From positions 64,269 to 128,268 of the forward strand of contig JALFCF010000003.1 of assembly GCA_022771205.1 (NCBI GenBank): 64,000 nt of DNA. The letters are read 5' to 3'. Source of the DNA: Mycoplasmatota bacterium (GTDB lineage Bacteria; Bacillota_I; Bacilli_A; RF39; UBA660). This document shows positions 61,360 through 64,000 of this stretch, in pieces (position 1 is the stretch's first letter; each line of letters begins with the position of its first letter). The notes beneath the pieces are model-generated. The model ran no database searches and was not told where the DNA came from. It saw only the letters and a program-made list of their open reading frames with translations. The translations under genes and the position numbers were made by a program.

Positions 61360-62100
61360 ATGAGAAAATTAACGGCTGTAGAAGAACAAGAATTAATAAA
61401 GATGTATAAACAAGTAGAAAAAGGTTTTGAATCATTCACAGAAATAAAAACTACAGAAGATTTATTTCGTTGGAGAGAAAAAGTAAAAGAAGAAAATAAT
61501 GAAGATGGAAAATTACGTAATGAAATTATTGAATAAAGAATAAAAGGAAATCAATCATTAGAGCTTTTATATGCTTGGTCAAAGTTTACTCGTATGGTAA
61601 CTAGAGCCAAAGCAAGTCTTAATTTAGCTAAGAGAAACTGTGGAATAACCAGTTCGAACGCCTACAGATTAAAAGCATCAACTATGTTACATGATCATCT
61701 AGAAAAATCAGAAAAAGCAAGAGAGGATAGACTATTTGGAATCTATAAAGTAGAAGAAATAGGACTAGAAAGAACATTTCCTAACGAAAGAAAATTTAGT
61801 AATTCTCATGAATATGTAAAATCACTAGTAAAAGAAGATGATCAACAACCTTGGCCAGCAGTATTATTTGTAACACTTATGAATGCTTATGGAATTGAAG
61901 CAGAGGATTTGTTAACAGTAGGAAGAGCAGTGGAGAAAAAAGGACGTGAATATGTTGCAGATATAGCAGTAGAACACGAAGCAAAAGCATCAGCCGGAAC
62001 TACTAATAGTTATGGAAGTTTAATAAAAAATAAGAACCAGATGGTTCTTTTTTTTGAAAAACAAAAAAATTATGATAAAATATTAAAAGAAACGAGATGA
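61360..62100 (+). pseudogene. unrecognised gene interrupted by an in-frame TAA
   Basis: ATG 61360 (after AAAGGGG) reads MRKLTAVEEQELIKM to TAA at 61534-61536. The same frame continues without break as RIKGNQSLELLYAWSKFTRMV and on to 62100. The ATG at 61594 that opens the second track ORF has no ribosome site, so this looks like one gene with a nonsense codon (CAA to TAA would explain it). The late part runs through an intrinsic terminator at 62032-62055. One more A in the run 62025-62030 would place a TAA just before that hairpin, so the true end may be near 62034. No family recognised. Confidence 0.6.
62032..62056 (+). terminator. intrinsic terminator inside the annotated ORF
   Basis: AAGAACC-AGAT-GGTTCTT followed by T. 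It lies about 50 nt before the apparent stop of the upstream ORF. Confidence 0.82.
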
Positions 62101-62658: not shown

Positions 62659-63021
62659 ATGAAAATAAGTGAGGTTAGCAAAACATTAAATATCCCGAGT
62701 GCTACTCTGCGTTATTATGAACAAATAGGTTTATTAGAAGAAATTGAAAAGAAAAACGGGATAAGAGATTATAGCAAGCAAGATATAGAACGCATAAACT
62801 TTATTACTTGTATGAAAAAATCTGGCTTTAAGTTAGAAGATATTCAAACTTTTATAAACATGGATATGACTAAAGCAACAGGTCCTAAAGCAAGATTAGA
62901 GATGTTATTAAGACAAAAAGAAATTTTATTACAAGAAATAAAAGAAAAAGAAGAAACACTAAAATTCTTAGATTATAAAATAAACATATATAAAAATAAA
63001 ACGGATAAAAATGATAAATAA
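62659..63021 (+). CDS. MerR-family regulator, AdhR/NmlR-like
   Basis: A 120-residue regulator. The N-terminal winged HTH MKISEVSKTLNIPSATLRYYEQIGLL is classic MerR, followed by the dimerisation helix. A single Cys at about residue 51 (FITCMKKSGF) matches the position of the thiol sensor in AdhR of Bacillus subtilis, which responds to aldehydes and electrophiles. The carboxymuconolactone decarboxylase gene 0.75 kb away has the AdhR-type operator in its promoter, making it the likely target. AAGGTGAATAAGCA precedes the ATG. Confidence 0.87.
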   Translation: MKISEVSKTLNIPSATLRYYEQIGLLEEIEKKNGIRDYSKQDIERINFITCMKKSGFKLEDIQTFINMDMTKATGPKARLEMLLRQKEILLQEIKEKEETLKFLDYKINIYKNKTDKNDK

Positions 63022-63052: not shown

Positions 63053-63646
63053 TTACACTATTCTAGTAATAGAAACAGTAGCTGAATATAAATCATTAGG
63101 TACTAAGCTAATATCAAGGCCTGAAGTATTAATAAAACGATAGCTTGCTCCGGGAAGAGCCTCAAAAATAGCATTACCATTAATTGTTCCAGTATCGCAA
63201 GAGGTAAGTTTATTATGAGTAGATGAATGAGCTATTAAAACATCATCAGGCCAGAATTGATGAAGTTCAATACCTAAGGCTCTAGGTTCACAACTAACAT
63301 TCTTATCGGTATGACGAACATTGATCCACCAATGTATGATATAAATACCTTTTTCAGGAATAGAAAAATCTCCTGTTGCAGGATTATAAGATATCTTATT
63401 AGAGATGTTAGCAGTTTGAAATAAAACTGGTTGTTGATTTGGAACAGTAGAATCTGTTTCATCATGTACCATGGCATAACTATTTAAAGGAATAGCTGGG
63501 GTACCTGCAGGTCCAGTCGGTCCAGTAGGACTTTGTCGATTTTTACATAAACAATCAATTACACGGCAAAGACATTCGTCATTGCAAGTTTAGTTACAAC
63601 ATTCATTAGTAGATAAAACATCATTTAGTTCATTATTATTTTCCAT
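63053..63646 (-). pseudogene. BclA-like collagen-type spore or surface protein with an in-frame TAA
   Basis: From ATG 63646, behind AAAGGAGG, the minus-strand frame reads MENNNELNDVLSTNECCN, a TAA at 63592-63590, then in the same frame TCNDECLCRVIDCLCKNRQ, a short collagen-like tract SPTGPTGPAGTP and a C1q/TNF-like beta-sandwich domain of about 140 residues. This is the layout of small BclA-type exosporium or surface glycoproteins: Cys-rich start, GXX repeats, trimerising C-terminal domain. The track shows only the part from an internal Met (63472). CAA to TAA would explain the stop. It fits the sporulation genes elsewhere in the window. Confidence 0.72.
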
Positions 63647-63722: not shown

Positions 63723-63753
63723 TTGACTTAAAGTAGACTTTAAGAATTATAAT
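63723..63753 (+). promoter_or_regulatory. MerR-type promoter with AdhR-like operator
   Basis: TTGACT and TATAAT are separated by 19 bp, the long spacer typical of MerR-activated promoters. Within it lies a perfect palindrome CTTAAAGT-AG-ACTTTAAG (63727-63744), that is CTTAAAG-N4-CTTTAAG, the operator described for AdhR of Bacillus subtilis. Confidence 0.85.
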
Positions 63754-63776
63754 AAAAAATAGAAAGGAAGATGAAG

Positions 63777-64000
63777 ATGGCAAAACAAACTGCCGGAAGA
63801 GATCAGTTAGGTAAATTTGCTCCAAAATTTGCCGAATTAAATGATGATGTATTATTTGGAGAAGTGTGGTCTAGAGAAGACAAACTATCATTAAGAGATC
63901 GTTCTTTAATCACTGTAGTAGCATTAATGAGCAAAGGAATTTTAGATTCTAGTTTAGAAGCTCATTTAATAAATGCAAAGAAAAATGGAATTTCTCAAGA
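63777..64000 (+). CDS. carboxymuconolactone decarboxylase family protein (partial)
   Basis: The first 74 residues of a protein that runs off the window. MAKQTAGRDQLGKFAPKFAELNDDVLFGEVWSRED is the start of a carboxymuconolactone decarboxylase-like protein, and LSLRDRSLITVVALMSKGI is the conserved family stretch. These are small AhpD-like folds, some with peroxidase activity. In Bacillus the AdhR regulon includes a family member (YraC), matching the operator found upstream. Start is ATG 63777, with AAAGGAAG upstream; ATG 63771 is too close to the ribosome site. Confidence 0.88.
   Translation, partial: MAKQTAGRDQLGKFAPKFAELNDDVLFGEVWSREDKLSLRDRSLITVVALMSKGILDSSLEAHLINAKKNGISQ

Follow-up and report, generated by a model that had tools for sequence, protein, structure and literature searches.

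A predicted MerR-type promoter switch for a carboxymuconolactone decarboxylase gene in an uncultured Bacilli lineage, resembling an AdhR regulon in reduced form

The window, meaning the whole stretch of 64,000 nucleotides analysed here, belongs to the genome of a Mycoplasmatota bacterium, and its last part carries a gene for a MerR-family regulator and a gene of the carboxymuconolactone decarboxylase (CMD) family on the forward strand, with a collagen-like gene lying between them on the reverse strand. The features concerned are as follows.

62659 to 63021, forward strand: MerR-family regulator of 120 amino acids, with Cys51 at the position of AdhR Cys52 (Pfam MerR_1, 4.9e-19)
63053 to 63646, reverse strand: collagen-like/C1q gene, interrupted at codon 19 by an in-frame TAA, most Gly-X-Y repeats missing (translation, C1q match)
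63723 to 63728, forward strand: -35 element TTGACT, invariant in 13 promoters of the genus
63727 to 63744, forward strand: predicted MerR operator, dyad CTTAAAGT-AG-ACTTTAAG, in the 19-bp spacer, its first 2 bases overlapping the -35 element
63748 to 63753, forward strand: -10 element TATAAT, 19 bp from the -35 element, with 97% mean pairwise identity over 13 promoters of the genus
63771 to 64000, forward strand: CMD-family gene of 110 amino acids, which runs off the window and ends at L010:1872 (Pfam CMD, 1.7e-8 for the portion inside the window)

A sequence-only reading of this DNA had put the regulator gene 0.75 kb upstream of the promoter; it does lie upstream, but its end is 0.70 kb and its start 1.07 kb away. 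The same reading had noted the collagen-like gene between regulator and target, and this position stands. The gene, which is intact in relatives (261-302 amino acids), was rejected as a member of the regulon, being on the opposite strand and interrupted by a stop codon in the window genome, and Bacillus spizizenii has no such gene separating its MerR and CMD genes; it is a broken bystander, outside the switch. Another likely pseudogene lies at 61360-62100 on the forward strand, with an in-frame TAA at 61534-61536, and its counterpart in another genome (G005, L254:7376-7951) looks intact at 192 amino acids.

The CMD gene has an alternative start at 63777, and its product is 65% identical over 86 amino acids to the CMD protein encoded next to adhR in B. 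spizizenii. It is devoid of cysteine, which rules out a peroxidase role through a CxxC motif. In relatives the operon consists of CMD followed by NUDIX, flavodoxin and cupin genes, one of the latter three being absent in some genomes. Directly after the CMD gene of the window genome stands an open reading frame of 70 amino acids (L010:1876-2088, forward strand) in which the start of the NUDIX gene is joined to an unrelated end, and this is the footprint of a deletion that removed the NUDIX, flavodoxin and cupin genes and left CMD alone.

The promoter TTGACT-N19-TATAAT, with CTTAAAG-N4-CTTTAAG in its spacer, is present at 63723-63753 just as the sequence-only reading had described it. Specifically, a 19-bp spacer (63729-63747) separates the two promoter elements, and the perfect dyad CTTAAAGTAGACTTTAAG (CTTAAAG-TAGA-CTTTAAG) has arms that reach 8 bp, CTTAAAGT-N2-ACTTTAAG, so that the four central bases given earlier as N4 are actually T-N2-A. 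A dyad operator within a promoter spacer of 19-20 bp is the mark of promoters controlled by the MerR family (PMC5045206), and the window promoter has this arrangement. A literature search for the operator sequence returned nothing relevant. With its 8-bp arms, the dyad in the CMD promoter is one of only seven perfect 8-2-8 palindromes in the window. Perfect palindromes of the 7-4-7 type number 28 there, and this could speak for a palindrome that arose by chance in AT-rich promoter DNA. Against such a chance origin, which is given next to no weight, the operator sequence is expected 0.026 times per genome under a first-order Markov model, while the 1.36-Mb genome holds one exact copy, at the CMD promoter; a scan of the window revealed no further operator site with fewer than two mismatches.

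What rules out the chance origin is conservation among relatives. Across 118 genomes, sites allowing one mismatch at most turned up in 14 of the 16 genomes of the genus, in none of the family's remaining 55 and in a few other members of the class; a reversed control pattern was found in none of the 118. The sequence-only reading expected the palindrome ahead of orthologous genes in close relatives, and 13 of the 15 genus genomes that have a CMD gene indeed keep TTGACT-N19-TATA[AC]T with zero to three mismatches in the operator. Mean pairwise identity over these 13 promoters is 1.00 in the -35 element, 0.85 in the operator and 0.97 in the -10 element, against diverged flanks (0.45 upstream and 0.56 downstream). 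MerR and CMD have likewise stayed neighbours across the genus, and they are neighbours in B. spizizenii too. Taken by its sequence, the MerR-type switch for CMD looks real and under selection, and it is a switch of a kind already known.

The earlier proposal to scan the genome for the operator in 19-bp spacers was followed, and it turned up two sites in addition to a weaker one. Exact matches to TTGACWTAAAGTNNACTTTAA in promoters are two, one at CMD and one at a DUF362 gene (G000:C8:14606), whose promoter reads TTGACA-N19-TAGACT; DUF362 orthologs carry the site in 11 genomes, and also in G007 (L061), where MerR has diverged and no operator lies directly ahead of CMD. The DUF362 operator-promoter (L003:1497-1527) overlaps the last codons and the stop of a flavodoxin-like gene upstream, whose own N-terminus seems to be missing. 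The weaker third site, with two mismatches, lies ahead of the ATPase gene of an ABC exporter (G000:C6:70844; L016:1501) in the promoter TTGACT-N19-TACAAT. This near-operator is conserved in 13 of 14 genus orthologs and is asymmetric in all relatives, most of which have GGTA[GT]AAG as the right half. Apart from this site, none of the genomic near-matches inspected, with two to three mismatches, lies within a 19-bp promoter.

The regulator itself is the sole Pfam MerR_1 (PF13411) protein found in the genome, which is 94% complete, and its score of 68.6 bits, well over the Pfam cut-off of 21.6, places it among MerR winged-helix proteins. Its best NCBIfam match is NmlR (NF041849) at 84.5 bits, under the curated cut-off of 175, which the B. 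spizizenii AdhR also misses with 150.5 bits; three PDB chains (5D8C, 5D90 and 5E01, the last being HI_0186 of Haemophilus influenzae) match it at about 1e-9. In the alignment with B. spizizenii AdhR its Cys51 stands opposite Cys52, which bears out the earlier claim of a cysteine at the matching place, and this residue is kept in every MerR ortholog of the genus that was aligned.

Regulator and operator are lost or changed together. In G008 (70% complete), the one genus genome whose only MerR is non-orthologous (25% identical, from another part of the tree), no MerR ortholog was found and the operator is absent at all three places, that is, at the CMD, DUF362 and ABC genes. In that genome the 19-bp spacer of the CMD promoter holds TTAGAGT/ACTCTAA in place of the operator, with the gene of this other MerR next to it, and the same symmetric AGAGT/ACTCT type of operator stands ahead of MerR genes in G098 and G082. 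Both half-sites thus appear to change together, as those of a dimer operator would, and the natural swaps from AAAGT/ACTTT to AGAGT/ACTCT offer ready test pairs for MerR recognition. The coupling bears on the idea that a different MerR, one that the 94%-complete assembly lacks, binds the operator, and that the neighbouring protein acts elsewhere. G003, the counter-case to the coupling, lends this idea some weight, since its CMD operator is perfect although the syntenic position has lost the MerR gene and none was found in that 71%-complete genome; the same operator is, moreover, read by several MerR clades. The single MerR_1 protein found in the genome, the preserved neighbourhood and the absence of all sites where the MerR ortholog is wanting speak against it, and this explanation is considered improbable.

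With high though not complete confidence, 63723-63753 can thus be described, from its sequence, as a MerR-activatable CMD promoter run by the 62659-63021 protein via Cys51. A dimer of this protein would bind CTTAAAGT-N2-ACTTTAAG within the spacer, over-long at 19 bp, and, when no signal is present, would keep the promoter unproductive. A reactive electrophile or oxidant would then modify the presumed sensor Cys51, upon which the modified MerR could untwist the spacer, allowing RNA polymerase to use the -35 and -10 elements and transcribe CMD. The DUF362 gene is most likely controlled by the same MerR, and the ABC exporter possibly so.

The nature of the inducer is where the proposed mechanism meets its strongest competitor. 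A scan of bacterial genomes for the promoter pattern gave at least 117 stretches, B. spizizenii included, and the 111 genes that follow such promoters belong to very different Pfam families: aldo/keto reductase (15), MerR (11), short-chain dehydrogenase (8), DUF362 (7), transketolase/DXP synthase-like (6), cupin (6) and CMD (5). In one Clostridium sp. (DSM 17811) the operator-promoter occurs three times in some 5.3 kb (L114:153-5472), twice ahead of lipoprotein-like genes. The cysteine at the AdhR Cys52 position is present in 65 of the 92 MerR proteins collected and absent in the other 27, several of those encoded beside the operator carrying His, Arg or Ala instead; as the operator is also common to many MerR paralogs, it does not name the inducer. 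The promoter might accordingly answer, through MerR, to a small molecule or redox state other than an electrophile at Cys51, with CMD, DUF362, flavodoxin and cupin serving metabolism and not stress. The diversity of the genes behind the operator fits this, as does the genome profile search, in which ADH_N (the adhA type), DJ-1/PfpI (yraA) and Aldo_ket_red gave no match in the 94%-complete genome. Cys51 in all aligned genus orthologs and in AdhR, as well as the control of a homologous CMD gene by AdhR, with its Cys52, in carbonyl stress (PMC4776306), point the other way, and a signal of this other kind is regarded as a minority possibility, albeit a serious one.

The same search bears on the aldehydes. 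According to a review and a primary paper, AdhR of B. subtilis activates yraC (CMD), adhA and yraA, its regulon is triggered by formaldehyde or methylglyoxal, and in the presence of formaldehyde a C52A variant failed to produce the transcript of adhA (PMC4776306, PMC11577753). An AdhA/YraA arm in the window genome was rejected, as were aldo/keto reductases, the genes having been searched for and not found, and the formaldehyde arm of AdhR therefore appears to be missing. Together with the missed NmlR cut-off, the position of the regulator in the tree and the wide sharing of the operator, this leaves the earlier suggestion of a methylglyoxal or formaldehyde response unsupported, and neither compound is specifically favoured as the inducer of the window switch.

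If the electrophile-sensing mechanism is followed further, CTTAAAGTNNACTTTAAG and its symmetric variant CTTAGAGTNNACTCTAAG may form a widely shared operator code, used for redox enzymes by a MerR superclade whose members mostly contain the cysteine; the regulon of the one MerR detected in this reduced genome would then be pared down to CMD and DUF362, plus an asymmetric third site ahead of the ABC exporter, and the electrophile it counters would be something other than formaldehyde. This broader proposal is a tentative one. The window switch itself extends the AdhR-CMD switch of B. subtilis to an uncultured, small-genome lineage of Bacilli. That it survives there while the aldehyde dehydrogenase arm is missing suggests that its conserved core targets are CMD and DUF362, and what DUF362 and YraC-like CMD proteins do becomes testable in a small regulon.

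Among known systems, the AdhR (YraB) regulon of B. subtilis, compared here by way of the B. spizizenii locus (L109), is the nearest, sharing the operator, the 19-bp spacer, the MerR gene beside CMD and the position of the cysteine. In that locus adhR (TTGACT-N19-TACCTT) and the divergent CMD gene (TTGCCT-N19-TATACT) both have the operator in their promoters, and a second MerR gene adjoining adhR (L109:6635-7100, reverse strand) appears fragmented. The earlier claim that an AdhR-type operator links MerR to CMD is borne out by this same arrangement, which makes the window system AdhR-like. It differs in that adhA- and yraA-type genes were not found in the window genome, in that the window merR gene, unlike the B. 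spizizenii adhR, has no operator of its own (allowing up to three mismatches), and in that its product is just 37% identical to AdhR and falls outside the AdhR group in a tree made by a quick method with many weakly supported forks. NmlR of H. influenzae, Neisseria and Streptococcus pneumoniae shows a family resemblance and the same cysteine position, but the window protein stays under its curated cut-off and no adhC-type target was found in the genome. The wider Bacillota MerR regulators with CTTAAAGTNNACTTTAAG promoters have the same operator and 19-bp spacing, and their targets differ (aldo/keto reductases, short-chain dehydrogenases, iron-containing alcohol dehydrogenases, DUF362, cupin, flavodoxin and transketolase-like proteins). 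With an AdhR-type operator, a cysteine at position 52 of AdhR and a CMD (yraC) gene that its operator marks as a putative target, the window switch would, judged by its sequence, work as AdhR does; it is best described as a reduced regulon of AdhR-like type, and in the strict sense as no more than a candidate member.
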